A stretch of 64,000 bases of DNA from Chaenocephalus aceratus (Eukaryota; Chordata; Actinopteri; Perciformes; Channichthyidae): the NCBI GenBank assembly GCA_023974075.1, contig JAMFTG010000205.1:107001-171000 (forward strand). Direction: 5' to 3'. Shown piece by piece: positions 1 through 59,399 of the stretch. The first letter of the stretch is position 1. The number at the start of each line of letters is the position of its first letter. The notes under the pieces were generated by a model. That model was not told where the DNA came from. It made no database searches and saw nothing but the letters and a program-made list of their open reading frames with translations. The position numbers were made by a program, and so were the translations under genes.

Positions 1-123
1 CGCTCCACTCCTGAGTCCTTCAGAGCGTTGAATCCCAGGTCCAGAACTCTCAGATGGATGTTGGACTTCAGAGCTGAGGCCAGAGCAGAACAGCTGATCT
101 CTGACAAGCTGCAGCTCCACAGT
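1..123 (-). CDS. LRR exon of NLRC3-like gene, cut by window edge
   Basis: This is the 5' part of a leucine-rich-repeat exon of a fish NLRC3-like receptor. The acceptor AG lies just right of 123, after a pyrimidine-rich TTCTTTATTCAG. The reading frame gives the usual cysteine-containing LRR pattern ([18 protein letters not shown], then LKDSGVE). The exon continues past the left edge. Complete copies of the same exon at 3755-3925, 60207-60377 and 62574-62744 are each 171 nt, so each adds about two repeats without changing phase. LRRs of NLRs form the ligand-sensing or autoinhibitory C-terminal solenoid. No stop is visible in the part present. It is probably a 3' exon of the gene whose NACHT exon is at 5251-7077. 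Confidence 0.8.
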
Positions 124-615
124 CTGAATAAAGAAAACATGATGTAAGTTTAGAAAACAAAGTTCCTGTTAGAAATAACTCCAGGTTTAATAATGTGATC
201 AGAGTCAACAGGGTTTGAATTAGGGAAGGGAATGATCCATCGAATATTCTAAAGGATTCAGGTATTGGAATATGAGTTATGAACATCTGTATTGTAATGA
301 TTATTGTTTCTATGGGAGGGGTGCCTAAGTTGGTTTCATATTATCAAATGGATTAATTAAATGTTTACGACCGTGCCATTTTAAATATCTTAAGAAAAAT
401 ATCAACAACAAAAAAACACGTGTAACGTTGCCAGGGCTCAGCCCAGAGGACGATGCTCTGACGGCATCACCCTCGCACATTTCCCACATGTTTACAAAAA
501 ACTATTTATATGTTGAAACTTTTCTCGTTCTTAATATAGACTTTATTTAAGATCCATATGAGTTGACTTTCATTCACAATAGATCTCTGTGACCGGATAG
601 AGTTTTCGGCTTAGG

Positions 616-4496: not shown

Positions 4497-5250
4497 CTAT
4501 AATAACACATAAATTACAACATGTGTTAAAAAGAGAAAACATTACATTAAACTCAAGCATTTGATGAAAACATGTTTGACATGTTCTGATAGACATTTGC
4601 TGTCAGTCCATTTCATGTGATGTGTGACAGTAGAGTGTAATGAGTGTGATCTGATCACACGGCTGTGCTCCTGCTGTCACTGGCTGTTACCAAAGCAACA
4701 GGAACATTAAATAAATCACAGTCAGAGATGTGCATGTGTAAATGTGGACGTGGAGGATGGAGGGTGCTTTGGCTTCTCTGAGCATCTGAACATGTACTGC
4801 GCACACAAACACAGTTAACAAAGCAATAGCGTTTCAACATGTTCCACTGAATCCCATCACATGTTCCCAGAACATCAGCACGAAGACGTGACTCTGGTAT
4901 CGGTGGGACACGATGTAGATCTTATTTTAAACTCCAACACATTGTGATAAAAGTCTTAATGATAAAGAAACTAGAAAGTAATGAGTGCTTTCTGTGGTAA
5001 CTGAGTCCTGTGTGTGGAGTGGTCACCGGCTGAGAAGCCTCCAGAGTCCTTCATGTGGTGACATGTCGCCTCCTTCACTCCACATGAAGAGAGGAACGCT
5101 TCAGTTTAACTAGTATTATAAATAAATGGAAGAACAGTGATGGTTTATTTTGCTCTCAGTATTTAAACAGCAGAAATGTTATCGTGTTCATTTGAATAAT
5201 GAAACTCCTGATCCTCATTAGTCTATAAAGTGAATCCCATCTGGACTCAC
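4497..5250. other. Intron between NACHT and LRR exons
   Basis: Unique-looking intronic sequence bounded by the donor at 5250 and the acceptor at 4497. I see no gene, repeat array or mobile-element end in it. Confidence 0.6.
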
Positions 5251-7077
5251 GTGGCCTTCCTGCAGTTCCTCACAGCTGGGAGCAGTCTCCGTCGTCCCTC
5301 CTCTGATGTGTTGTACTGACTCAGGTCCAACTCCTCCAGAACCTCCTCTGACATCTGCAGCATGTAGGCCAGAGCAGAGCAGTGGATCACAGAGAGTCTC
5401 TCCTCTGATCTGTCCCCTGACTTCAGGAACTCTGTGATCTCCTGATGTACTGAGTGGTCCTTCATCTCTGTCAGGCAGTGGAAGATGTTGATGCTCCTGT
5501 CCGGAGAGATTTCACCACTGCTCATCTCCTTCAGGTTCTTGATGGCTCTCCGGATGTCTGAGCGACCCAGCTGGCCTCTGAAGAGTCTCCGGATGGTTTC
5601 TGGTCTGTTGTCTGTGGGACCCAGCAGGCCTCCTAACAGACTCCGGTTGGACTCCAGAGAGAGGCCGTGGAGGAAGCGGACAAACAGGTCCAGGTGGCCA
5701 TTTTCACTTCTGAGGGATTCCTCCATGGCTCCCTTCAGGAAGACATCCAGGGATGGGTAATCCTGATCTCTCTTCAGGAAGTCCTTCAGTACCACTGTCT
5801 TCCTGTTGGAGTAACAGTGGAACACGTAGACTGCAGCCAGGAACTCCTGAATGCTCAGATGAACAAAGCAGTAGACTGTTTTCTGGAACCTCACACTCTC
5901 TCTTTTGAAGATCTCTGTACAAACTCCTGAGTGCACCAAGGCCTCGGTGACACCAAGACCACAGCGCTGCAGGTCTTCTTGGTAGAACATGATGTCTCCT
6001 TTCTCCAGATGTTCAAACGCCAGCCTCCCCAGCTTCAGAAGAAGCTCCCTGTCAGCTCCGTCAGCTGCTGGGGACTCGTCTCATGTCCCTCTTCATACTT
6101 CTGCTTCTTCCTCTTGGTCTGGACCAGCAGGAAGTGTGAGTACATGTCAGTGAGGGTCTTGGGCAGCTCCCCTCTCTGGTCTGTAGTCAGCATGTGGTCC
6201 AGAACTGCAGCAGTGATCCAGCAGAAGACTGGGATCATGCACATGATGTGGAGGCTCCTGCAGCTCTTGATGTGAGAGATGATTCTGCTGGACAGGCCTT
6301 CATCACTCGATCTCCTCCTGAAGTACTCCTCCTTCTGGGCGTCAGTGAAGCCTCGTACTTCTGTCACCCTGTCCACACACTCAGGAGGGATCTGATTGGC
6401 CGCTGCAGGTCTGGAAGTTATCCAGACGAGAGCCGAGGGAAGCAGCTTCCCCCTGATGAGGTTAGTCAGCAGCACGTTGACTGAGGACGGCCGAGAGACC
6501 TCAGACACAACCTCACTGTTTCTGAAGTCCAGAGAAAGTCTGCTTTCATCCAGGCCGTCAAAGATGAGCAGCACTTTGCAGACAGCCAGCTGCTCTGCTG
6601 TGACCTTCTGTAAGGTCGGATGGAAGACATGGAGCAGCCTGAGAAGACTGTACTGCTCAGCTTTGATCAGGTTCAGCTCCCTGAAGGAGAGCGGGATCAC
6701 CAGACTCACATCCTGGTTTCCCAAACCCTCGGCCCAGTCCAGAGTGAACTTCTGCACCGAGAAGGTTTTTCCAACGCCAGCGACTCCGTTGGTCAGGACC
6801 GCTCTGATGGGAGTCTGCTGGTCCGGTGAGGCTTTAAAGATGTCCCTGCACTTGATTGGAGTGTCATGGAGGGGCTTCTTCTTGGAAGCCGTCTCCAGCT
6901 GCCTCACCTCATGCTGGGTATTAACCTCTTCACTCTGGCCTCGTGTGATGTAGAGCTCAGTGTAGATGCTGTTGAGGAGGAGGGTTTCACTTTGACCAGT
7001 TCCTTCAGTCACACGTTCACATCTCCTCCTCAGACTGAGCCTGTGTTCATCTAGAACCTCCTGCAGACCACTCTCTG
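5251..7077 (-). pseudogene. FISNA-NACHT exon of NLRC3-like receptor, frameshifted
   Basis: This is the large central exon of a fish NLR. Reading leftward from the acceptor CTTCCAG at 7078, it opens with a FISNA segment ([24 protein letters not shown]). Next comes a NACHT ATPase domain: Walker A GVAGVGKT at about 6764-6787, Walker [11 protein letters not shown] at about 6545-6580, then the winged-helix part with [16 protein letters not shown] near 5850. It ends at donor GCCAC/GTGAGT (5250). NACHT binds ATP and drives oligomerisation in cytosolic immune sensing. The frame breaks near 6057: upstream it runs QQLTE then off-frame to a stop, and downstream it resumes [14 protein letters not shown]. 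The pattern fits loss of one G from GAGGCTGAC. No other break is seen over 1.8 kb, so the mutation is recent or is an assembly error. Confidence 0.88.
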
Positions 7078-7230
7078 CTGGAAGAGAAGGAGACAGGAGA
7101 GAATGAGGAACATGCTCTGATTAAAAACAGAGTTTGAATGTTTTATAAACAGCTGACTGTCTCTGCTCTACAACAGTATACAAATGAACCAGGAAGAGGA
7201 ATGAAGCGCTGCATGAGTTCGGCCTCTTAC

Positions 7231-10212: not shown

Positions 10213-11012
10213 CAAGTACAAGATCTGAGTACTTCTACTTTTACTCAAGTACAAGATCTGAGTACTTCTACTTTTACTCAAGTACAAGATCTGAGTACTT
10301 CTACTTTCACTCAAATACAAGATCTGAGTACTTCTACTTTCACTCAAGTACAAGATCTGAGTACTTCTACTTTTACTCAAGTACAAGATCTGAGTACTTC
10401 TACTTTTACTCAAGTACAAGATCTGAGTACTTCTACTTTCACTCAAATACAAGATCTGAGTACTTCTACTTTCACTCAAGTACAAGATCTGAGTACTTCT
10501 ACTTTTACTCAAGTACAAGATCTGAGTACTTCTACTTTCACTCAAGTACAAGATCTGAGTACTTCTACTTTCACTCAAGTACAAGATCTGAGTACTTCTA
10601 CTTTTACTCAAGTACAAGATCTGAGTACTTCTACTTTTACTCAAGTACAATATCTGAGTACTTCTACTTTTACTCAAGTACAATATCTGAGTACTTCTAC
10701 TTTTACTCAAGTACAAGATCTGAGTACTTCTACTTTTACTCAAGTACAAGATCTGAGTACTTCTCTTTTACTCAAGTACAAGATCTGAGTACTTCTACTT
10801 TCACTCAAGTACAAGATCTGAGTACTTCTACTTTTACTCAAGTACAAGATCTGAGTACTTCTACTTTTACTCAAGTACAAGATCTGAGTACTTCTACTTT
10901 ACTCAAGTACAAGATCTGAGTACTTCTACTTTCACTCAAGTACAAGATCTGAGTACTTCTACTTTTACTCAAGTACAAGATCTGAGTACTTCTACTTTCA
11001 CTCAAGTACAAG
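10213..11012. repeat. 33-bp minisatellite, about 24 copies
   Basis: The tandem unit is 33 bp, AAGTACAAGATCTGAGTACT then TCTACTTTTACTC, with T/C variation near its end. Single units and fragments recur at 11970-12020, 12790-12850, 19485-19520 and 21810-21905, so the array grew from a dispersed fish repeat. The unit length is divisible by three, which produces a long meaningless ORF on the minus strand. Confidence 0.95.
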
Positions 11013-23382: not shown

Positions 23383-24596
23383 TACTTATTGTTCTACTTC
23401 TTACATGTTGAACACAAATACCTGTACTTTCTACTTCTTACATGTTGAACACTAATACCTGTACTTTCTACTTCTTACATGTTGAACACAAATACCTGTA
23501 CTTTCTACTTCTTACATGTTGAACTCAAATACCTGTACTTTCTACTTCTTACATGTTGAACTCAAATACCTGTACTTTCTACTTCTCTCAGGTTGAACAC
23601 AAATACCTGTACTTTCTACTTCTTACATGTTGAACACAAATACCTGTACTTTCTACTTCTTACATGTTGAACTCAAATACCTGTACTTTCTACTTATTAC
23701 ATTTTGAACACAAATACCTGTACTTTCTACTTCTTACATTTTGAACACAAATACCTGTACTTTCTACTTCTTACATGTTGAACACAAATACCTGTACTTT
23801 CTACTTCTCACATGTTGAACTCAAATACCTGTACTTTCTACTTCTCTCAGGTTGAACACAAATACCTGTACTTTCTACTTCTTACATGTTGAACACAAAT
23901 ACCTGTACTTTCTACTTCTCACATGTTGAACACAAATACCTGTACTTTCTACTTCTTACATGTTGAACTCAAATACCTGTACTTTCTACTTCTCTCAGGT
24001 TGAACACAAATACCTGTACTTTCTACTTCTTACATGTTGAACACAAATACCTGTACTTTCTACTTCTTACATGTTGAACTCAAATACCTGTACTTTCTAC
24101 TTATTACATTTTGAACACAAATACCTGTACTTTCTACTTCTTACATTTTGAACACAAATACCTGTACTTTCTACTTCTTACATTTTGAACACAAATACCT
24201 GTACTTTCTACTTCTTACATTTTGAACACAAATACCTGTACTTTCTACTTCTTACATTTTGAACACAAATACCTGTACTTTCTACTTCTTACATTTTGAA
24301 CACAAATACCTGTACTTTCTACTTCTTACATTTTGAACACAAATACCTGTACTTTCTACTTCTTACATTTTGAACACAAATACCTGTACTTTCTACTTCT
24401 TACATGTTGAACTCAAATACCTGTACTTTCTACTTCTTACATTTTGAACACAAATACCTGTACTTTCTACTTCTTACATGTTGAACTCAAATACCTGTAC
24501 TTTCTACTTCTCACATGTTGAACTCAAATACCTGTACTTTCTACTTCTCTCATGTTGAACTCAAATACCTGTACTTTCTACTTCTCTCATTCTCCA
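23383..24596. repeat. 37-bp minisatellite, about 33 copies
   Basis: The unit is TACCTGTACTTTCTACTTCT then TACATGTTGAACACAAA, with variants (CTCTCAGGTTG, TACATTTTG) that occur in blocks, a sign of higher-order duplication. A short array of the same unit with the same right flank (GGTTCCTTTAGT) lies at 52337-52507. Confidence 0.95.
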
Positions 24597-26983: not shown

Positions 26984-27983
26984 TCATGTTAGATCAGTAA
27001 TGTATAGTGTGATGTAGTGTGGTACACTAATGTACTGCATATCAGTCCATGTAAAAATAAAAATAATCTCCCTTCTCCCTAATGGTTGCAGCCAGTCTCT
27101 GCAGATACGTTGTATAAGGATATCCTCCTCTGCAACAACTACGAAATCGCACCACTCCATCCCTGTGAGTAGGAGCTGGCCTTGCACCTGCCAATAGTAG
27201 CTATGAGACTGCTTCAGTTTTAATGTGCCACTTTGCATTTTTAAGTAGCTACAGTCCACATAACTTTTCACATTTGGGCATTTTATTTCTACAAGTCCAA
27301 AAGGTGGGCTCTCAGTTGGGTCAAACACCAGACCGTCAGGAGATGACCCTAACCAGGGGGCATCTGGGTGAATGACAAACCCACACGGCCAGTAGTTGGT
27401 GTTTTTAATCCGGCAGTATTCCTGGATGGCAACCGGTTCCAGTGCCAGTCCCCTCTTCATTGACGCCGTTTGCGCCACTCCCTCCTGAATCCGTTGAGCC
27501 AGGTTTTCAGCCGAACTCTGACCTCGAACATGGCATACTTCCCTGAAACGGGAAGAAGTTACTCTTGGCCTCCTAACACGGTGCCATTCCACACTGTCGC
27601 TCTGCTCCCTTGTGGCCACCTCGATTTTCCTTGCCATGAGCAATGTTGTCGCAAGTGACAGTAGATGGAGGTGCTGTTGGTGACTGCCCACAAACTCACA
27701 GGTGGTAGGCTCCAGCCTATAGCCATCCACAGGTAGAGGTGGTGGTGGAGGGGCATCTGGGTGACGCGCTATAACCCGGCTAAGAGGTAGTGGGTGCTGG
27801 TATGAGATAGGGCTGCCTTCCTGAACTTTTCCAAAGGTGGAGTTAACCAGTGGCACGTCCACACTTATAGCCATGGTGGTGATCAGTGGTGCGATGTCTG
27901 CTGAGAAGTCCTTGTATGCCTCGCTGACTTTGAGGACATCTGGGTCTGGCAGCGCCCCCCGCACGGCCTTGTAACGTGTACTC
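26984..27983 (-). CDS. YqaJ-type nuclease exon (exon 4 of fused ZNF-N/YqaJ gene)
   Basis: This 1000-nt terminal exon starts after TTCAAAG at 27984 and ends with a stop at 26984. With the previous exon it reads GVR/STRYKAVRGALPDPDVL. The YqaJ viral-recombinase fold follows: MKRGLALEP with the first acidic residue, SSPDG with the Asp, VEIKCP with the E-x-K pair, and SYYWQVQGQLLLTG with the conserved Gln helix. All PD-(D/E)XK residues are present, so the enzyme could be active. YqaJ nucleases are lambda-exonuclease relatives that process DNA ends. In animals they are known as the second ORF of ISL2EU/IS4EU DNA transposons and as derived host genes. The full ORF over four exons (40809-40977, 29029-29462, 28095-28174, 26984-27983) is 560 codons with no stop. 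Confidence 0.82.
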
Positions 27984-28094
27984 CTTTGAACATGTTTATA
28001 TGATAATTAGGACTTTAAGAACAATTTTACACTCAGACAACAATCACAAAGTTGTAGCAGGCGACATACAATTACTTTGGACAATAGATATTAC

Positions 28095-33286: not shown

Positions 33287-33843
33287 TGTTAGAAATTTAA
33301 AGGGATTACTAGTCCGCTTTTCAAATCTCCGCGCGTCCCTAACAAGCTGGTTATCATACAGGAAGGAATCCAGAACATACAATTAACCGTTTAACAATAA
33401 TCTACTTTAATGGTAATATGACAATGCAATACAATCAATACAGTACAAATTCAATACAGTTATCTTTGGGATCCCCTATTTACCTGATACTCACGTGAGC
33501 CAGCCAGAGGAAAGAGACTGAACACAGCGTGGTTCCTGTCTAATACATCGCTTACAATGGGAGGAGTTATCTGATCCTCCCTTCCAGACCTCCGTGATTG
33601 GCTGCCCAAATATCACCAACACCTCACTTCTTAAGTTTCCCCAATCACAGTAGCTTAGCTTCATTATCTCCTAGATCTGAGTTGACTGTAAGTCAAACCC
33701 TCACCTTCCCCCATCTTCCTTTGTTCTCAAAAACCACATGTCAACAGGCCCCAAATCCAGCTCACAGTTTTTACACAAATCATTTCCCATTTTAAGCTTA
33801 TTCATAGTTTGCTAACATGAATACATACAAATATTTCCTTACA
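33287..33843 (-). repeat. 3' LTR (complete)
   Basis: Read on the minus strand it begins TGTAAGG directly after the polypurine tract and ends TTTCTAACA. It contains a CCAAT box (GCCAATCACGG on the minus strand, about 33594-33604). Length 557 bp. Confidence 0.75.
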
Positions 33844-33844
33844 A

Positions 33845-33857
33845 TTCCCCCTTTTTA
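33845..33857 (-). promoter_or_regulatory. Polypurine tract
   Basis: The minus strand reads ATAAAAAGGGGGAA immediately before TGTAAGG. This is the standard plus-strand primer site next to a retroviral 3' LTR, and it fixes the LTR boundary. Confidence 0.75.
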
Positions 33858-34138
33858 TCTCCTTCTCAAGAGATAAACTTACACAAGGCATTTTGAAACA
33901 TAACTATTGTCACTCCTCTCCACTGTGTTCATCTCTCAACATTATATTTAGAGCCCTTTAAACATTTGGAAACAGCCCTTCATAGCAATTTCTTATGGCA
34001 GAATGAGAGAGAGACCAAAACATGTCAAAAAACTGCGTCCTTGTCTGCTGAGTCTCCATACTCGTCCTCTCCCTCCGAGACACAGGCCAACAGTGGCAGG
34101 AGGGGAAGAAGCAGCTTTTCCCTCAATGGTGGAACTGA

Positions 34139-35185
34139 TTAGTCTGACACATAATGAGCGGATGCACGGCACACAACAACACCCACATGATAGTCTTTGT
34201 CCATGGATACAACTCGAATGGTTTCATCAGACCCCTCTGAGGGCAGGATGGGCTGGTTACACGCAGCACATTTAGGCGCCAGGACCCTGTGGTAGTCTTT
34301 CAGACAGTAGATTTTATTCTCAGTGTCCACAGTGAAGGGCACTCCGTCCAGGCTCTCGTTGCAGATGACGCAGCGGAAACAACCGGGGCGGTAGGACTTC
34401 CCCAGGGCCTGCAGGATCATGTCCATGATCAGATGTCCACATGCGTTGCACTTGTCTGCAGACTGCTGGAACCCAGAGTACAGAAAGTCCTCTTCACAGA
34501 AAACCCTTCCTCCGACATAGTAGAACGCCTTCCCTCTCAGCCTTCGACTACAGGCGCTGCAGGTGAAGCAGCTGTCATGGTAGAGGCTGCCCATAGCTTG
34601 GCAGGCCTGGCTGGCTCCATACACCGTCTTGTTGTACTTAACACACACTCCTGTTTCAGCGGAGAGTGGAGTCCCCTGTGCCGTCCTGGCTTGCCGTGTC
34701 TTTGTCCCCCCTGATCCGCTGACGGTGGCTTCTGGGTTGCCTGCTAGAGAGATGTCTTCCTTCTCCTCCGGCTCGCCGATGGCGGCTTCCGATTCGATGC
34801 TGAATAGATGTCCTCCCGATCTTCCTTCTCCGGTCCGATGATGATGCCTCCCGGGACGACTGCTGGATGGATGTCCTCGAGGTCCTTCTCCTCCAGTCCG
34901 CTGATGACAGCATCCGAGTCGACCTCCATGACGAGAGCCAGATCCGTCCTGATGTCGTCTAGGGTCCTCGCAGGTGTTTTCCCGACCGCACACTGGCTCC
35001 AGTTGTCCCAGTTGTCCCCCTTTCCTTGTAGGCGGACGGCATGGGATGTCCTCTGGGTCACTCGGTAGGGGCCGGAAAACCTGGGGTTGAGCCACTTTGT
35101 TCTGATGACAGTCCGCCTCCTGCGTCTCGGGTCCCCCTTTTGGCGTCAACAACCTGTGTGGACAAATCTGATACAAATCCCTCAA
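34139..35185 (-). CDS. ORF with Ajuba/LIMD1/WTIP-family LIM domains in LTR element
   Basis: A 348-codon ORF. Residues 181-240 match LIM1 ([19 protein letters not shown], then [11 protein letters not shown]). Residues 246-300 match LIM2 ([39 protein letters not shown]). Residues 306-334 match the first part of LIM3 ([29 protein letters not shown]). The match is to the zyxin-related Ajuba/LIMD1/WTIP scaffold family, which acts at adhesions, in P-bodies and in Hippo signalling. One LIM1 zinc ligand is changed (CVKY for the usual CVKC). LIM3 stops at DYHV, followed by GTG-rich sequence and 13 unrelated residues. The 154-residue LIM part is uninterrupted, although I expect several introns in the host gene. 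Residues 1-180 are retroviral and acidic-repeat DNA, partly in a wrong frame, so the natural start is unknown. Confidence 0.75.
34990..35160 (-). pseudogene. Integrase C-terminal domain remnant
   Basis: Another minus-strand frame reads [20 protein letters not shown], then AVRLQGK and [10 protein letters not shown], then [11 protein letters not shown]. This is the small beta-barrel C-terminal domain of retroviral/LTR integrases, recognised by the W...GPY-V...T..A...G...W...S-C spacing. It is open into an acidic region ([22 protein letters not shown]) until a stop near 34745. No catalytic core is found upstream. Confidence 0.65.
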
Positions 35186-38100
35186 GCCTACGCTAATTGT
35201 GCAGCTTCAGAATCTTAATACTTGGACTGTGCCAACTAAATAAGAACCCCAACATCTTTAGGTAAACTAAATAACATATTTCAATAGCTCTGAATTTCTG
35301 ACAAGCATCTGTGTTTATTTTTAAATGAAATCCTTGAGATCCCATTAAAAATCTAAATATGATTTGAACTGCTAATGTTTCTAGTAAAGAAACACCCTAA
35401 TGTTATGGATTCAAAAACAACCAAAATCACAATACTAACAAAGTGAATGGCTTCCTGGTGATACTGCTTTTACCCGTCAGTGCTTAGATATTATCCCGCT
35501 GAAAAAATGAATACAGAATTCCAACAAACTGTCCTCAAATGTCTTTCTATTATAAATGTGGTGAAATGTATATCCCCATAATGACCTAAACAATAAAGTC
35601 TATGGCTTTTACTTCTTTACCAGACTAGTTACATGATATTGTCTAAATTACATTTTGTCTCATTACATTACTATGTTTTAGCTTAACTGTAAATATGTTC
35701 TTTCTACATTTCAAACCTCAGTTACTTTAATACCTGTTGAAACATTAGTTGAAACATTACTCACAGGTCCGCTTCTTCAGTATTCCATTCTGGACTTACA
35801 TCTCTCTGGCAGCCCCTTGGCCACTGATTATTTATCTGTGTTACCTGCTATAACTCAATCAATATTAGAGACATGTCAACATTCATCAAACAGCATCTTA
35901 TCCCCAGATATGGAGCAGGTCAATTCTAAAACTGTCAATCAATGATCAGATTGAACAATTGAGTTTGGGCAGCCGGTTCCTTTCAGTCCCTAAATGAAAA
36001 ATGTACATTGTGAAGTTTACACTCCCCCTTTTTACACATTAATTCATGTGTAACCAAAATCCTGTATGGGAAGAAAACCTTGGTCATAATGGATTATAAG
36101 ACAATACCAAACATTTTTCCCAAATGTACATCCATCATTTCCACAGTAAACACTTCAGTGAAATGAAGTGTTTCTCTCCATCGTCCAATCCTAAAAGAAA
36201 CAGAATCCTCAAATGTCATAGTTTGAGTTTCACATTCTGCAAACTGCCACCTCCTGTGGGAGTGAAATATCATCAAGCAGATTAGAAACGGTTTCCCCTT
36301 TTGTGCAATGTTAGGAAACCTCTCATTTCACACATTATTATCACACAAAAATAATGTGTTAGTCCAAAAACATGCTTGATTAGTCATTGTTTTAAATCAT
36401 GCAGTTGCACTGATCAGATGCAGACATACACTCACTCACACTCACACTGTCAGGTTGTTAAGTCAAGTTTGGTCAGGTACACCTCAGAGTCAGTCATTGA
36501 CAGTGCCTTCCCAAGTTACCCTGTCGGTCAGGGTCAAAGGTCAGTTGGTCTTAGTCTTTTTGGCCATGTGTCGTGCCCTGCAGAGATGTTCCAGCACAGG
36601 CCAGCATCCTCCGTCTATAAAAATCTGTATATATGGAGCGCCATCATTTATTAATTCACAATTACAACTATAATGTTCAAGATATCTCCAACCCCTCATT
36701 GCCGTTTCCCACATTCCCTGAAAAGTGTCTAGCCAAAAAAATGTCACCTCCTTAGAGTACTACTACTATTACTGCAATTCATTTACACCTAATTAGTATT
36801 AAAATGACTAATAGATCTATTTCAGAAACTTGTGTACATCACTATTATCTTGTGTCAAAACATTACTAGGATCTGTAAAGCTCTGCTATGTATTCCATAA
36901 CTCATTCTATTAATGTATCTTCAATTCTGGTGCACTTAAAGAACAATGTTACCCTCTTTAACAGTGCGTGGAACCCTGGGTGTCCGAACATGCAACAATT
37001 ACTCCCTATTTCATCAAGGATTTAAAAACAGAAGTCATTTCGTATGTCCATCCGAAAGCCCTCCTATGGTAATAACTATGCCACAATGGTGGAACCAGTA
37101 CCTCAAATTGAAATACTATATTTTGTTTAGAACCAGCTTTCCCTTCAACATGACCTATATAAATAAATATTTGTCTGATCTTATAGAGCTGTTACTAAAA
37201 CTCTCCCTTTGAACTGATCAATACTGTAACAAATTAAAACACTACCAAATTCACACATGAATAAAAAGTCTAGTGCATACTTCCTTCATGCCCCCCCCCT
37301 TTTCTATCAGTGTGTTTTAGAATGATTTTTCACTTCACTTTAATAGTTCTCCTCTTTTCCGCTATTTTTTATTTACCAATTGACTAATTTATGGTCAATA
37401 CATCTTCTTATCTTCACTTATTTATCAAGTCAATTCAAGTTCTTTACAATACATTAGTAGATACCTTGTGAAGTATTCACAATAACTAATCCCCTCTAGG
37501 ATATGAAATCCATTCATCTTTAAGCAGATTCTATTTCCTTATTTATCTTTTGTTCATGATAACAATGGTATAACAACCACACGTTTTACCCATAGCTAGT
37601 TTCTATAACAAGATTATTATGTGTGACATAATAATCAGATGTCTTGTTTGCTAACCAAGAATATTAAACTTTAATCTTTTCAGCATTCCAGACCATCATA
37701 TAAACAAGCAGCCTCCTATCTAAACACTAAGCATTAAGGTTTCTACACCACCAACTGGGAAACTCTTGCACAATTATGCTGTACAATCATTGCATCATTC
37801 CTCCAGAACAATCTGAGACAAGCATGTCTCAAGATCTTGTCATAATGAGCACAGTCAGTGATGCAGCTGTAGTCAGTGGCAGGGTCCCCAAAAAAGCTAG
37901 GACCGGCCCTGGTCAGTGGGCTCCAAGGAAACTCTCCCTGGCTTTGAGATGAGGGAAGGAATCACTTGGCAGACACACGTTGTCCTCTGTACGGCAGAAA
38001 TCCCCCAAAACCGCAGTACCTCTTCACACCACTGTTGCCTTGACAACGAGGCACAAGCATAATGTCAATATCTCCTCAGAGATGCATTCTTTGCACACTT

Positions 38101-40100
38101 CTTCTGTTCGCAGTGAGCAACTCTTCACCAACACACTGATTCAGAGAACCCAAAAGGTGGTGCAGAACTATCCAATGCTGCTGTAATCACATTCAGCTAC
38201 TGAGAAAAACTCAATTTAAATCTCTCTCCCAACGGGTTACAAAATAAAACGGCTGAGTGTCTATATGGTCAGGAATGCTGAAACATGTGAATGTTAAAAC
38301 AAATCAATGGCAGTAGTCTACCCAGATTCTTTACTCCATTAAAAGTAGTAAAACCACATTGTAAAATCTCTGTTGTCTAGTTGAAGTCCTGCTTACTTCA
38401 TCTTTAAAATCTTCTTTAATTTGAAACCAAAAAAGGTCTTCCTTCTCCACCATGATCCTATCTCTACATCAAAGTCCATACAAACTGATGATTTATCTTT
38501 AGAAACCATGAGGAATGACAGTTCTCATAAAACACTATCCTTCCTTACTTCAGTTCTAAACCAAATGAGCCAAACAGGAAACCCCCTTTACCACTTGCTT
38601 ATTCTATCTACTTGGTTAATTCTATTCATTTTCAAATTGTTTATCTAAGTTGTGTTACAAGCATGGTGAGGTTACAGAATACACAAATAACTGTATTCAA
38701 TCCGCGCCGTATTTGAAAACTGTAATGAATTAAAATATTTAAGGACGTAATATAAGTTAAATATATTGTTAAGCTAATTACTGTTTTATTGTGAAGGCAT
38801 CTCTGGCGAACAGCGGCCTTTGGCTTTTATTGTGAAAGGCCGTTCCGGAAATATACACCGTAATGTGAATAGTGAGTTCGACTTCTAGAAACACGGCAAG
38901 TTACGATAACAATCGTTCTAATGCATTAACTAAAGTCATGAAAGAGACAAGGAGGGGGAAAGGCGTGTGGAAGCAAGCAATGAACTGAAAATGCCACCAA
39001 TCCTCTGTTTTAACGTGATGGCGCACATTGAAAACCGAAGCGGGCATAAACACCCCTGTCATATAAACATTAATAGATTCCTTCTGACTGACAAGCGTTC
39101 AAAAACCCTTTTCTTTAGCCCCCTGTTTGATTCCACTTAAAATCAATCTCTTAATCTGTTCCCATTGCTCCCGGTAACTCCCTGGAATTTCAGAATTGTC
39201 TTAACCATTCTGACGTTCCATATTCACTTCGCTTTTATTTATCTGACTTAATTAATATGTGTTCACTTGTATTAATATACTTGGCTATTGTCGTTGTTAA
39301 CGTGCTTCCCCCCCCTTTCAGCCACTAGATGGCAGCAGCAGAGCACAAATGAGCTTCACTCTTCTGAGTGCATTGTCTGAGTTCCACAGACAATCGCTCA
39401 CACAGGTATTTTAGGTAAAAATCACACAGATTTATTCCCCGTACAGTTTGTCCAGCTTGATAATGTGATGTTTATTTCAACAGACAAACAAGACCCCGCT
39501 TCGACACCCATAAAGAATGTGACCATTCCATGGGGCATCTTAGCGAGCCCTTTATCACACGTTAGCTTTTCAAATTAAGTTTACAGACAAAGGGAAACGA
39601 GAGCCGGTCCCGTCACAATTTCGGTGAGGTTTGCGTTCTCTTTCCCCTCGATTGAACATATAACAGACCGCTGGCTTTAGCTTTTAGCCTTGGTCTGCTA
39701 TTTAACCCCAGTTTTAAACGGCGACCCGATCTAAAATATCGAGTTTCCAGGTTTTGTCGTGCAGGAATATAACCTCGCAACCCACAAACTGCACCGTTTC
39801 CACGCCACTCAGGAATAAGTATACCTGAGGTCCACGCCAAACTGCTCTATTTTACGTTACGCCGGACTTTCTGTCTACCTTGCGATCAACGTTCACGTGT
39901 TGTATATAACTTTCCTAACATAGTAAAATATGCATTGTATATTCCATTTAAACTTCAAAAACACTGTGAAACGCCTACAGACAATCCTAAAGTTTTACCT
40001 TATTTGTAGTTGCAGGGCCCTGCTGATTGTCTGAGATGTTTAAAAGCGTTTGTTCCCGACCCATTCCGGTCGTCCGAATTCTTCCACAGCTCTGTTTACC
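35186..40100. other. Interior of LTR element without recognisable genes
   Basis: About 4.9 kb, AT-rich, with no ORF above about 92 codons and no visible gag, protease or RT motifs in any frame. Because the LTRs are nearly identical, this is unlikely to be decay after insertion. The element was probably already defective, or this part is captured non-viral DNA. Confidence 0.6.
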
Positions 40101-40118
40101 AGGCACGTCGGGTCACCA
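40101..40118 (-). promoter_or_regulatory. Primer binding site, tRNA-Trp type
   Basis: The minus strand reads TGGTGACCCGACGTGCC two bases after the LTR end. This matches the complement of the tRNA-Trp 3' end (ending ACGTCGGGGTCACCA) with one C missing. Confidence 0.65.
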
Positions 40119-40120
40119 TT

Positions 40121-40589
40121 TGTTAGAAATTTAAAGGGATTACTAGTCCGCTTTTCAAATCTCTGCGCGTCCCTAACAAGCTGGTTATCATACAGGAAGG
40201 AATCCAGAACATACAATTAACCGTTTAACAATAATCTACTTTAATGGTAATATGACAATGCAATACAATCAATACAGTACAAATTCAATACAGTTATCTT
40301 TGGGATCCCCTATTTACCTGATACTCACGTGAGCCAGCCAGAGGAAAGAGACTGAACACAGCATGGTTCCTGTCTAATACATCGCTTACAATGGGAGGAG
40401 TTATCTGATCCTCCCTTCCAGACCTCCGTGATTGGCTGCCCAAATATCACCAACACCTCACTTCTTAAGTTTCCCCAATCACAGTAGCTTAGCTTCATTA
40501 TCTCCTAGATCTGAGTTGACTGTAAGTCAAACCCTCACCTTCCCCCATCTTCCTTTGTTCTCAAAAACCACATGTCAACAGGCCCCAAA
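40121..40589 (-). repeat. 5' LTR, outer end missing
   Basis: Matches 33287-33755 with two substitutions seen. After GGCCCCAAA the two copies diverge, so the outermost 88 bp are absent here. Confidence 0.8.
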
Positions 40590-52336: not shown

Positions 52337-52507
52337 ACCTGTACTACTTCTTACATGTTGAACACAAATACCTGTACTTTCTACTTCTTACATTTTGAAC
52401 ACAAATACCTGTACTTTCTACTTCTTACACTTTGAACTCAAATACCTGTACTTTCTACTTCTTACATGTTGAACTCAAATACCTGTACTTTCTACTTCTT
52501 ACATTTT
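52337..52507. repeat. Short 37-bp minisatellite, about 4.5 copies
   Basis: Same unit and same flanks as 23383-24596, with far fewer copies. Confidence 0.9.
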
Positions 52508-52639: not shown

Positions 52640-53785
52640 TCTGCTGATCAAGAAGGTGGTGTTGCATAAACGGAGCTCAGAAACAAAGTGTCAGAATTTA
52701 AAAAGCACAACATTTCTTACCATTGCTTTGCAGATGATCTGCAGGTATACCTGCCTATAACAGCAAATAAGGAATCGAGGAGTGCCTTGCTTAGCTGTCT
52801 GAAAGACATAAAATCATGGATGGAAATCAACTTCTTGACTCTTAATGAAAAGAAGACAGAGATTATAATATTTGGACAGTCTGAACTCCTGGATGGCTTT
52901 AATAGTGTACTCGGCCCCTTAGCCTCCTACAGCCGTCCCTCTGTCAGAAATCTTGGAGTCATCTTTGACAACTGTTTTAAATTTGACAAACAGATAAGCT
53001 CAGTTGTCAAGACAAGCTTCTTCCAGCTGCGGCTTCTGGGGAAGGTAAAAGCCTATCTTCCTAGTAAGGAATTTGAACAGCTAATCCACTTATTTATCAC
53101 GTCTCGTTTAGACTACTGTAACTCCCTCTATATTGTTGTTGACAAGTGCTTGATCCGTCGCCTGCAGCTGGTCCAAAATGCGGCTGCCCGCCTTCTTACT
53201 GGGAAGAGACGTTATGACCACATCACACCCGTTCTGGCAGACCTTCATTGGCTTCCTGTCAGTTACAGGATCCAGTTCAAGTACTTGTTGTTTTTAAATC
53301 ATTGCATGGACTGGCACCACATTACCTGTCTGAGTTGTTGCACCGCCATGCTCCTGCTAGAGCATTGCGCTCAGCTCAGCAGAATATGTTGGTGGTTCCT
53401 CGGAGCAGGAAAAAAACCAGAGGTGACAGGGCCTTCAGTGTTGCAGCTCCCAGACTGTGGAACAGCCTCCCAGCACATATCCGGACTGTTGAGTCTATTG
53501 AACTTTTTAAATCCCAGCTAAAAACTCACCTCTTTGCAATGGCTTTTAATACTAGTTGAGCATTACATTTTTATATTTGTATGTGTTTTTTTATTTTTTT
53601 ATTTTTTTATATGTTTCTAGTTATTGTGCTTTTTATTATGTTTTTAATTATTGTTTTTATTATCGTACTCCCATTGGGCTATTCACTATTGTAGTTACTG
53701 CCTGCCCTGTACAGCACTTTGGTCAGCCGAAGGTTGTTTTAAATGTGCTATATAAATAAATAAAGATTGAGATTGAGATTGAGAA
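52640..53785 (+). mobile_element. L2-clade LINE, 5'-truncated and frameshifted
   Basis: Reads SYHCFADDLQVYLPI (the catalytic FADD box), NFLTLNEKKTEIIIFG, NLGVIFDN, then SRLDYCNSLY and ADLHWLPVSYRIQFK. It shifts frame near 53300 and ends APRLWNSLPAHIR, FKSQLKTHLFAMAFN and a stop. These are the C-terminal half of an L2-type reverse transcriptase. The element ends in a 3' UTR and (ATTGAG)n. The endonuclease domain and start of RT are missing. Confidence 0.88.
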
Positions 53786-55750: not shown

Positions 55751-57160
55751 CCATCCATCTTCTCCCGCTTATCCGTGGTCGGGTCTCGGGGGTAGCAGTT
55801 CCAGCAGAGAGCCCCAAACTTTCTTTTCCCTGGCGACATCAACCAGCTCTGACTGGGGGATCCCAAGGCGCTCTCAGGCCAGCGAAGAGATATAATCCCT
55901 CCACCTGGTCCTAGGTCTACCCCTTGGTCTCTTCCCAGCTGGACGTGCCTGGAACACCTCCCTAGGGAGGCGCCCAGGTGGCATCCTAACTAGGTGCCCG
56001 AACCACCTCAACTGGCTTCTTTCGACGCGAAGGAGGAGCGGCTCAACTCCGAGTCCCTCCCTGATGACCGAACTTCTCACCTTATCTCTAAGGGAGACAC
56101 CAGCCACCCGGCGGAGGAAACCCATCTCGGCCGCTTGTATCCGCAATCTCGTTCTTTCGGTCATGACCCATCCTTCATGACCGTAGGTGAGGGTAGGAAC
56201 GAAAATGGCCCGGTAGACAGAGAGCTTTGCCTTCTGGCTCAGCTCCCTTTTCGTCACAACGGTGCGGTAAAGCGACTGCAGTACCGCTCCCGCTGCTCCG
56301 ATTCTCCGGCCCATCTCACGCTCCATTGTTCCCTCACTCGAGAACAAGACCCCGAGATACTTGAACTCCTTCACTTGGGGTAAGGACTCATTCCCTACTT
56401 GGAGTGGACAGTCCATCGGTTTCCTGCTGAGAACCATGGCCTCAGATTTGGAGGTGCTGATCCTCATCCCAGCCGCTTCACACTCGGTTGCGAACCGATC
56501 CAGTGAGTGCTGAAGGTCGCAGACCGATGAAGCCATCAGAACCACATCATCTGCAAAAAGCAGTGGTGCAATCCTTAGTCCACCGAACTGCAGACCCCCC
56601 CCCCCACGACTACGCCTCGAAATCCGATCCATGTATATTACAAACAGGATTGGTGACAAAGCGCAGCCCTGGCGGAGGCCAACCCTCACCGGAAATGGGT
56701 CCGACTTACTGCCGAGGACCCGGACACAGCTCTCGCTTTGGGAGTACAGAGATTGGATGGCCCTGAGTAGAGACCCCCTCACCCCATACTCCCGCAGCAC
56801 CTCCCACAGTAACTCCCTGGGAACCCGGTCATACGCCTTCTCCAAGTCTACAAAACACATGTAGACCGGATAAGCGTACTCCCAGGCCCCCTCCAGGATC
56901 CTTGCGAGAGTAAAAAGCTGATCCGTCGTTCCACGACCAGGACGGAATCCGCATTGTTCCTCCTCAATCTGAGGTTCGACAATCGGCCTGACCCTCCTTT
57001 CAAGTACCTTGGAGTAAACTTTCCCGGGGAGGCTGAGTAGTGTGATGCCTCTGTAATTGGCACACACCCTCTGATCCCCCTTTTTGAACAGGGGGACCAC
57101 CACCCCGGTCTGCCACTCCTTCGGTACTGTTTCCGACTTCCACGCAACGTTGATGAGACG
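55751..57160 (-). mobile_element. Rex3 (RTE-clade) retrotransposon, 5'-truncated
   Basis: A perfect 16-bp target duplication, TTTCTCTGGAATCCAT, lies at 55735-55750 and 57161-57176. The minus-strand ORF is an RTE reverse transcriptase: GVVVPLFKKGD, NYRGITLLSLPGKVYSKVLE, CGFRPGRGTTDQLFTL, FVDLEKAYDRVP, GLRQGCALSPILF, the catalytic LLFADDVVLM, and the C-terminal HLVRMPPGRLPREVF. It is open from the truncation point to a TGA at 55874. There a conserved Trp codon of SLAWERLG is mutated; the frame then continues to the end. The 3' end is a (GGAT)n tail. The endonuclease part is missing. This is a recent, inactive copy. Confidence 0.93.
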
Positions 57161-57176
57161 TTTCTCTGGAATCCAT

Positions 57177-59399
57177 TGGTCGATTTTGGTGATTGACATC
57201 TCTTTTTAACCGTTAGAGCCAATAGAATCGAAGGGGACTTTCCACATACTCACCAACGTTACCAAAATAAAATGGGGGCTTTGCGCATGCAGGTTTGCAT
57301 TAGAGTGAACCAATCTCTCGCTCTGACATCTGGAAACGGAAAAGTGGGTTTATTGCTTATGGATTATCAGAAATCATTTCAAAGGGACACAGACACATTG
57401 GATTAACCTATGGATTAACCTTCAGCAGCGTCTTTATCGTTTTAATGCCATTGAAGACCACTTTTGATCAGACAACGACAAAGGTAAGCCGTTTTGCCGT
57501 TTTAGCTACCGAGCGACAAGAGTTTTGATGTCTGTTTTTGTTTATAAAGTCGCGAGTTCTTATCATGGAGTGATAATGTAGGCACCGATCGATTCTGTGT
57601 CTTCTCACGATGCTAGTCGATATGTTGGACATGCAGCTACGATAAGGAATAAGGGTCTTATGAGTGAGTTTCTGTACAGTAATGCGTTAGCATTTTTTCG
57701 CTCGCGGCTAATTTAGAGGCTCAGCACTAGCTTTGTGGGTTTAAAAAAAAAAAAAGATCAGTTATCTGAGTTTCTTCCTGTTACATGGATATAAAACATT
57801 CATAGTTTATTACATCTTAAGAAGCCCTCAGACACTTTTGCTTGCAGATTTTGTGGTTTCAGCCCCGTCGGCGGGTCCGTGGGGCTTAATGAACCCGGGG
57901 TGATGAACACAAAGAAGAGCTCAAATCTTTTCTTCTTCTTGGCTTTTTCTGACTTTGTCCTCAAAGACTTTGAGAGCGTCTCCAAGAGAACCAGTGCTTT
58001 GATCACAGGGAGAACGTCTCCCCCCCAAACGCAGGATTATGGGATGCCTGTGGACCATTTTGAGATGGACACGGGTCAACAGGTAGCCCTCTGGGACCTG
58101 GAAGAGAAACAGGGAAATACTTTGGTTATAAAACAAGCAGTCGATTGTAGACGGGCTTCTTCAACTGATAGAGGAGAGTATTTGTTCTCACTGGATCAAT
58201 ACTATCTGATCTGCTCTCACCTCTCTGTACTGTATATACAGACAGTGGTGTGAAGGAACCAAGTATACATACTCATGTACTGTACTAAAGTACCATTTTG
58301 ATGTACTTGTGCTCTACCTGAGTATTTAAAGGCCTCTGGTTCAGAATCCCTGCTGGTTGAACCTGTTATCTGAACGTTTGAATGTTTATGTTGGGCTGAC
58401 CCCATCCTAGGTTAGTTTACTGTATAGCAGAGGTTCTTCTGAATGCAGTCCCTCATCAGAACCACCTTATTAACAGGTACGTTTACACACACAAGGAAGT
58501 AGATTCAGTGTCTGGAGGTGCGAACATAAACAACATGAGAAAATAAGTTGCAATAGAAGGTCAAGAATAATAAAAATAAGTATTTTGAAGAAACTATTTA
58601 CCATTAAAAAAGAATTAGACAAGTATTTATACGAAATGTAAATGTAAATACAGAAAGAACCTTAAAAGCTACAACACATAGCAGAATGAAAATATGACAA
58701 TATATGTAAAACTACAGAGAGTTAAAGTGGAGGGCTGTGCAGACGTGTGCAAACATGGCATGAAATGAAAGAAGGATGGTTATATAAAGATATTGTTAAA
58801 GTAGTGTTTGGTCGTGTTAGAGGATCAGCTGTATGAAGATCCAGGTGTGTGTTCAGGTGAGAAGAACACTGGAGCCTGGAGTTATGAAACAGAGTTAGTG
58901 AAGCTCAACTCCAGCTCAACGAACACAAACTACAATAACAGAACATCCAAAGACCAAAGCTAAGTATTCAGATTAGTGGGAGCCTCTGAGGTCGTTGTTG
59001 ATGTCCAATGGGTTATTAACGAGTTAACATGTGACAGCAGGACCAGCCAATCACAGCAGAGCGTGAGACATTGATCACAGCAGATGAACTGATATAAAAT
59101 TACATATATTTATTCATTTAAAAAATGTATGTTCAGGTTATGGTGACACATCTTTGTTCTTAAGAACAGCTTTAAGTATAATTTATTGTTGTTGTTCATT
59201 TAATGTTGAGCACAGCCAACAGGAAGTCTCAGCTGCAGCCTTCTTTCAAACTTTCCTAAATGCCTCCACGCTCCTCTGTACGTCTCAAACTCGCCCGTGA
59301 TAAATAAACTGTGAACAAATAAAACCTGAGCTGCAGATTTCTCTTGAATCCCAGAAAACACTGACCAGTAACTACAATTTATTCTGGAGTGAAACCTCA
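57177..59399. other. Unassigned region right of Rex3
   Basis: A possible noncoding exon ends at GACAAAG/GTAAGCC (57484) on the plus strand. An ORF at 57879-58253 has no recognisable domain. 59100-59400 may be untranslated NLR sequence. No confident gene. Confidence 0.4.

Follow-up and report, generated by a model that had tools for sequence, protein, structure and literature searches.

Spliced limd1a exons in a multi-copy retroviral-type LTR element of the icefish Chaenocephalus aceratus

The capture of host genes by retroviruses is best known from tumour viruses, and acutely transforming retroviruses carry spliced host exons between their LTRs in a defective genome. Among endogenous retroviruses (ERVs), crocodilian groups have captured KIT-ligand and nectin3 mRNA; purifying selection was reported for their ORFs, and nectin3 was gained at the expense of env (PMC4299795). 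Cellular genes, namely CNPase and a macro domain, have also been described in teleost ERVs (Basta et al. 2009, as cited in the review PMC4977317). Mouse VL30 elements are retrovirus-like, have a length of 5-6 kb, lack intact ORFs, are flanked by 4-bp target duplications and are moved in trans (PMC4859993). In notothenioids, the Antarctic clade in which we place the genome studied here, a two-fold variation in genome size has been attributed to the expansion of mobile elements (PMC10256766). Among the titles and abstract openings surveyed in openly licensed literature the capture of a LIM or limd1 sequence by a retroelement is unreported, which is weak evidence of absence, and it is unmentioned in the passages drawn on here from PMC13131655, PMC10256766, PMC7307600, PMC6431247 and PMC8672886.

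The window analysed in this study is a stretch of 64,000 nt from the genome of C. aceratus, and its minus strand holds at positions 33287-40589 two LTRs, a primer binding site (PBS), a polypurine tract, an integrase C-terminal remnant and a LIM sequence. A first-pass annotation made from the letters alone had described this locus as a retrovirus-like element with a host LIM cDNA and had likened it to oncogene transduction. Both statements are supported: spliced host exons lie between LTRs and are connected by virus-host joints, and the LIM-bearing element went through reverse transcription and integration of its own. With the acutely transforming retroviruses it shares a defective genome in which spliced host exons lie between LTRs; unlike these, the LIM element is a many-copy germline family and its LIM fragment is probably inactive. 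As in the crocodilian ERVs, host mRNA is carried by a group of endogenous retroelements, whereas the LIM piece is without a signal of purifying selection and seems to lie inside the pol tail (PMC4299795). The teleost ERVs with CNPase or a macro domain are likewise fish ERVs with extra host-like ORFs, but other genes were captured there (PMC4977317). With VL30 the element has in common the 4-bp target duplications and an apparent lack of intact viral ORFs, and movement in trans would be a further likeness, but it has captured host exons, of which the part of the VL30 source drawn on makes no mention (PMC4859993). The features of the window copy are as follows.

33287..33843, minus strand: 3' LTR, about 557 nt by comparison with other copies
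33844..33862, minus strand: polypurine tract, adjoining the 3' LTR
34028..34148, minus strand: viral tail (LISSTIEGK...DKDAVF), matching residues 235-276 of P0131
34149..34182, minus strand: 34 nt between viral tail and host homology, unassigned; matches to the limd1a stretches compared do not exceed 10 nt
34183..34650, minus strand: captured limd1a exons 2-7, spliced, 468 nt, with LIM1 (C5Y), LIM2 (H87R) and the first half of LIM3
34774..35192, minus strand: integrase C-terminal remnant and acidic pol tail, gapped relative to P0131
34139..35206, minus strand: open frame through the LIM piece, 355 aa from stop to stop, its first ATG within LIM1
35193..40101, minus strand: A+T-rich interior, about 4.9 kb, partly common to other copies
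40102..40118, minus strand: PBS, which we take to be of the tRNA-Trp type
40121..40589, minus strand: 5' LTR without its first approximately 88 nt

The PBS following the 5' LTR and the polypurine tract preceding the 3' LTR were both found as first annotated. The near-identity of the LTRs was confirmed as well, with two transitions in the 469 sites compared between 33287-33755 and 40121-40589, while the LTR extent given at first had been too short. Across 12 measurable LTR pairs of the family the K2P distance was 0-0.0097, and a 4-bp target duplication was present in nine of the ten testable copies, the LTR starts for both measurements having been fixed after inspection of the flanks. The exception among the ten was L010. 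The window copy, truncated at its 5' end, is also without a target duplication. Paired, young LTRs and target duplications are those of a retroviral-type LTR element (ERV class I-like).

The donor of the LIM piece is the genome's own limd1a, located on contig C16. LIMD1 had been among the candidates named at first, together with Ajuba and WTIP, and the choice could be narrowed to limd1a specifically, as 464 of 468 nt are identical to its spliced exons 2-7, a match far beyond chance. Intron loss relative to the donor, proposed at first pass, was verified: limd1a has five introns in this region (about 5.6, 1.0, 0.7, 0.9 and 1.5 kb), all precisely missing from the window copy. The sequence shows GT and AG borders for each of the four introns lying between exons 3 and 7, and for the exon 2-3 intron a donor GTAAGT together with an acceptor CAG. 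Capture of unspliced genomic DNA was ruled out because the five introns are missing. The left joint falls on the first base of exon 2 and is common to the aligned copies, and the 100 nt of the element that precede it match the limd1a stretches compared over no more than 10 nt at a time. Since CAG stands before exon 2 in both the element and host intron 1, a joint formed by 3-nt microhomology is possible. The right joint falls inside exon 7; a retained intron at this joint was ruled out, as the host homology stops within the exon. Both joint positions are as expected if a virus-host RNA was spliced and reverse transcription then switched template.

The integrase C-terminal remnant reported at first pass proved to be real. 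It is 72% identical over 123 aa to the Gymnodraco protein P0121, and a profile built from P0121 with four relatives led to the C-terminal domain of MLV integrase (2m9u, E=0.005). Two P0121 homologues exceed Pfam cut-offs, P0142 for MLVIN_C (narrowly under that for rve) and P0139 for rve (under that for MLVIN_C). The window piece by itself stays under these cut-offs, and a retroviral pol with an MLV-type integrase is recognised via the relatives and as a C-terminal remnant only. In P0131 the earlier part is integrase and residues 235-276 are the tail that follows LIM in the window element; the gene predictions P0131 and P0127 are continuous from integrase to this tail, and together with P0130, likewise a predicted protein of another fish, they look LIM-less. 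No env was recognised in the window element, nor between integrase and tail in P0131 and P0127, predicted proteins whose underlying DNA may hide one. The placement of LIM where env would be is doubtful because these two gene predictions pass from integrase to the tail; judging by predicted proteins from related fish, the LIM piece seems to lie inside the 3' tail of pol and not to replace env. No gag or pol domain was recognised by Pfam in eight interior pieces, a comparison that an old, decayed gag-pol could escape, and the plus-strand frames of at least 130 aa in 17 loci included no gag-pol-like frame within the element. Two frames of this size at L014 are of uncertain place.

The element is not a lone copy. 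All 17 element-pattern loci examined, each chosen by LIM matches, bear the element, and the ORF search returned at least 150 matches at E 1e-5 or better, with 114 of 1827 candidates scored; the pattern was counted by eye in about 97 of the best 150 scored LIM matches, and all copy numbers are lower bounds. Apart from L021 and L022, copies differ from host limd1a at 4 to 29 positions over 375-468 aligned nt, the highest values including misaligned tails. This spread is uneven for a single capture.

The LIM frame had been regarded as intact. It is indeed open and gives a Pfam LIM match at E=5.7e-24, but the encoded domains are damaged: in the window copy zinc ligands are lost in LIM1 (C5Y) and LIM2 (H87R), and LIM3 halts half way. 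Among the sampled copies the LIM2 zinc-ligand histidine H87 is gone in 19 of the 19 sequences covering the position, while the LIM1 ligands are retained in 19 of 21 sequences from loci found by LIM matches, which could hint at use. By its zinc ligands the product does not qualify as a functional Ajuba-family LIM protein. Changes relative to the majority sequence are spread over the codon positions as 27/25/24, counts that include misaligned tails of some copies, and comprise 58 nonsynonymous, 16 synonymous and 2 stop changes, with 28% synonymous expected. A class of truncated LIM sequences, which stop at residue 222, accounts for 36 of the best 150 ORF matches. Retention of intron 2 as the origin of this class was ruled out: the two copies read lack 11 nt where exons 2 and 3 meet and carry other deletions besides. 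Because H87 is lost throughout, LIM3 is cut, codon bias is missing and the truncated class is frequent, the LIM piece looks like mostly a passenger, and a decaying one, and we infer that LIM function is absent.

The window locus is best read as a provirus truncated at its 5' end, one of many copies in an LTR-retroelement family that was active recently and whose ancestor captured limd1a RNA, in the simplest case a single time. Transcription of a provirus located in or close to limd1a would have yielded a chimeric RNA in which viral pol-tail sequence was spliced, from a putative viral donor, onto the acceptor of exon 2. The cell would then have spliced exons 2 to 7 in the normal fashion, the RNA would have been packaged, and reverse transcriptase may have jumped from inside exon 7 to a viral template, by which the viral tail, polypurine tract and LTR would have been restored. 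The product, with no recognisable gag and with almost all of pol missing, would have been copied by helper proteins in trans and have spread; the LIM2 histidine would have been lost early, and frameshifted and deleted copies would have gone on spreading. For this whole account, comprising the status of the locus, spliced capture, template switch, helper-driven spread and a passenger LIM, our confidence is roughly 0.8.

Had LINE activity made a retrocopy (processed pseudogene) of limd1a that inserted into the element and was carried along, it would equally be intron-less. The LIM piece, however, begins precisely with the first base of exon 2, ends within exon 7 and not in a 3' UTR, and has neither poly(A) nor a flanking duplication of its own; this origin, already named as a refuting alternative at first pass, is unlikely. 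Several captures, or conversion of the element's LIM sequence by host limd1a, would accommodate the uneven host differences, with the window copy and L010 closer to the host; both are at odds with the common left joint and with the non-histidine residue at position 87 in every sequence covering it, and we consider them very unlikely.

Selective maintenance of LIM as a functional accessory gene, comparable to what has been proposed for KIT-ligand and nectin3 in crocodilian ERVs, would agree with a frame that stays open along almost the entire ORF both in the window copy and at C21:5983895, with an ATG in the LIM frame of some copies, with the retained LIM1 ligands and with the existence of protein annotations for two icefish copies. 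The missing codon-position bias, the ligand losses in LIM2 and in LIM1 of the window copy, and the frequent truncated classes make it highly improbable. Little credence is likewise given to the idea that a LIM1-only protein of the family, or its limd1a-matching RNA, acts on the Limd1 pathway or on limd1a expression and thereby affects the success of the element or the evolution of the fish.

Under the preferred reading of spliced capture and template switching, the family offers a natural germline capture of which both joints survive in many copies and the donor gene in the same genome. The model can be tested stepwise, as joints and donor are kept and other species seem to have relatives without LIM. 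The same fusion, with arginine at position 87, occurs in P0001 and P0002 of other icefish, and these protein annotations are probably mobile-element products.

The element lies on the minus strand of the window (33287-40589) and is organized as follows.

40121-40589, minus strand: 5′ LTR, its first ~88 nt missing by comparison with other copies
about 40118-40102, minus strand: primer binding site (PBS)
PBS to integrase remnant, minus strand: A+T-rich interior, ~4.9 kb
35192-34774, minus strand: integrase C-terminal remnant
34650-34183, minus strand: LIM sequence
34148-34028, minus strand: short viral tail
between viral tail and 3′ LTR, minus strand: polypurine tract
33287-33843, minus strand: 3′ LTR, about 557 nt

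Since the LTR start adjoins the polypurine tract in other copies, the 3′ LTR was set at about 557 nt and the 5′ LTR is short by ~88 nt. The near-identical LTR pair described in the first-pass annotation was recovered, with 2 differences in 469 compared sites. The remnant was identified as integrase from three observations: it is 72% identical to the related fish protein P0121; a profile search gave a specific, though weak, match to the MLV integrase C-terminal domain (E=0.005); and one homologue lies above the Pfam cut-off for MLVIN_C, another above that for rve. The window piece and P0121, each taken alone, fell below the Pfam cut-offs.

The LIM piece corresponds to exons 2 to 7 of limd1a (468 nt, 4 differences), where exon 1 is the pre-LIM exon adjoining the LIM region and the numbering takes in no exon upstream of it. 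The last exon of the host gene was located on contig C16 and the gene was then read in pieces (L033-L035); the exons read so far match P0003 of Pagothenia borchgrevinki, which like P0053 of Eleginops maclovinus is limd1a itself, at 94-100%, except for one exon hit that extended into intron at its ends. Five limd1a introns are precisely absent from the window piece, with GT/AG ends read at four of them and a GTAAGT donor and CAG acceptor at the fifth, which bears out the proposed cDNA origin. The donor is the genome's own limd1a. Insertion as an independent retrocopy was also considered, and neither a poly(A) nor a flanking duplication was seen at the ends of the LIM piece. At the left joint, host homology begins at exon 2 base 1, and the preceding CAG is common to the element and limd1a intron 1; in the 100 nt beyond that CAG no match longer than 10 nt was found in the fetched limd1a stretches, among which the gene start is not included. 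At the right joint, host homology stops within exon 7. One splice-type and one non-splice-type joint are expected under the classical model of retroviral transduction, and the left and right joints, respectively, fit this expectation.

The placement of the LIM sequence at the env position is doubtful, because in two predicted proteins, P0131 of Gymnodraco and P0127 of Pseudochaenichthys, the integrase continues through an acidic tail into the sequence found 3′ of LIM in the window. On that evidence the LIM piece would lie in the 3′ tail of pol, without env between, although gene models could skip sequence.

The search for further copies was made with the Pfam LIM model over the species' own assembly (1.06 Gb), with 150 of 887 candidates scored; among these, at least about 97 rows, counted by eye, share the element's narrow score and span. 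Twenty loci were fetched (17 of the element pattern and 3 odd rows), chosen by LIM match and thus representing LIM-bearing members only. All 17 element-pattern loci contained the element with LIM, and the 3 odd-row loci lacked the element. A perfect 4-bp duplication was found in 9 of 10 non-window copies having both flanks at hand, with LTR starts set by hand once the flanks had been inspected; none was present at L010, where both flanks were examined. LTR-pair K2P ranged from 0 to 0.0097 in 12 of 18 loci (the 17 and the window), and three pairs were free of substitutions. From the duplications and the low LTR divergence it follows that the family integrated in the retroviral manner and was active recently. 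In three of the 17 loci (L009, L017, L023), two units lie about 6.8-7.0 kb apart with repeats 99.6-99.9% identical, representing either tandem proviruses or assembly duplication. The copies L021 and L022, on separate contigs, have identical LIM pieces with the same large LIM deletion and unlike 4-bp duplications.

Two LTR types were distinguished, group A of about 540-565 nt (window, L011, L013, L015, L018, L026, L028 and others) and group B of up to about 1.1 kb (L010, L014, L016, L023, L024, and L012 solely for want of a window-type LTR). Interior and LIM cargo are common to both. As the groups are intermixed in the LIM-piece tree, in which several nodes are weakly supported, LTR exchange is probable. 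Among plus-strand frames of at least 130 aa no gag-pol-like frame was found inside the elements, two L014 frames being of uncertain place, and eight interior pieces gave no credible Pfam match; the family looks non-autonomous. Mobilization of non-autonomous elements in trans is known (PMC4859993, PMC6431247).

The first-pass annotation had described the LIM frame as intact. The frame is open in the window, but the LIM2 zinc-ligand histidine and one LIM1 cysteine are lost. In an alignment of 21 LIM sequences from 18 loci, the histidine was replaced in all 19 sequences covering it (18 arginine, 1 leucine; two lack that segment), and the LIM1 ligands were retained in 19 of 21, the loci having been chosen with LIM bias. 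Changes against the majority are evenly distributed over codon positions (27/25/24) and comprise 58 nonsynonymous, 16 synonymous and 2 stop changes, with 28% synonymous expected without selection; some of these changes stem from misaligned tails. The first ATG of the window frame lies inside LIM1, and some copies have an earlier one. Comparison of the 355-aa stop-to-stop frame through the LIM piece (34139-35206, minus strand) with the genome gave 1827 candidates (114 scored) and at least 150 rows with E-values of 1e-5 or lower. Among the rows listed, only the window (1-355) and C21:5983895-5984929 (5-355, 94%) show a near-full frame in a single piece, stop-free to the last residue. By hand count, 36 of the 150 rows listed end at residue 222; in the two such copies read, the frame is broken by a deletion where exons 2 and 3 meet, and further deletions are present. 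The simplest reading of these sequences is that the LIM piece is a passenger.

The best protein matches to the 355-aa frame were annotated icefish proteins, P0001 (Champsocephalus gunnari) and P0002 (Pseudochaenichthys georgianus), which contain the same viral-LIM fusion. Both look like products of the LIM-carrying element and are probably misannotated as host LIM proteins. Both also have the arginine at position 87, the site of the lost LIM2 histidine, so capture predates the Champsocephalus/Pseudochaenichthys split, unless the element crossed lineages. At LIM1 position 21, the element, Pagothenia, Eleginops and Zoarces have serine and the genome's limd1a has asparagine, indicating that the host changed there. 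Position 8 of LIM1 is threonine in the element, Pagothenia and the genome's limd1a and alanine in Eleginops and Zoarces; this one site would assign the capture to the Antarctic lineage.

Among the matches listed in our search of openly licensed papers, none reported limd1a cargo that, with a splice-type joint and beside its donor, has multiplied in a fish genome while decaying. Host mRNA capture is known from crocodilian ERVs (PMC4299795), and teleost ERVs carrying host-like ORFs are cited in PMC4977317.

Other features of the window are the following.

5247-7120, minus strand: fish NLR gene fragment with FISNA, NACHT, NOD2 winged helix and NLRC4 HD2 domains
26984-28006: open frame, 340 aa, YqaJ-like viral recombinase domain
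55874-57205: reverse transcriptase frame, RVT_1
52670-53521: reverse transcriptase frame, RVT_1 just under the cut-off
10213-11012, 23392-24585, 52344-52507: tandem arrays, with 33-bp units (24 copies) and 37-bp units (32 copies)

Both reverse transcriptase frames are probably LINE-type, and the YqaJ-like frame is perhaps derived from another mobile element. A unit similar to that of the 37-bp array occurs in a 4-copy array about 28 kb away.
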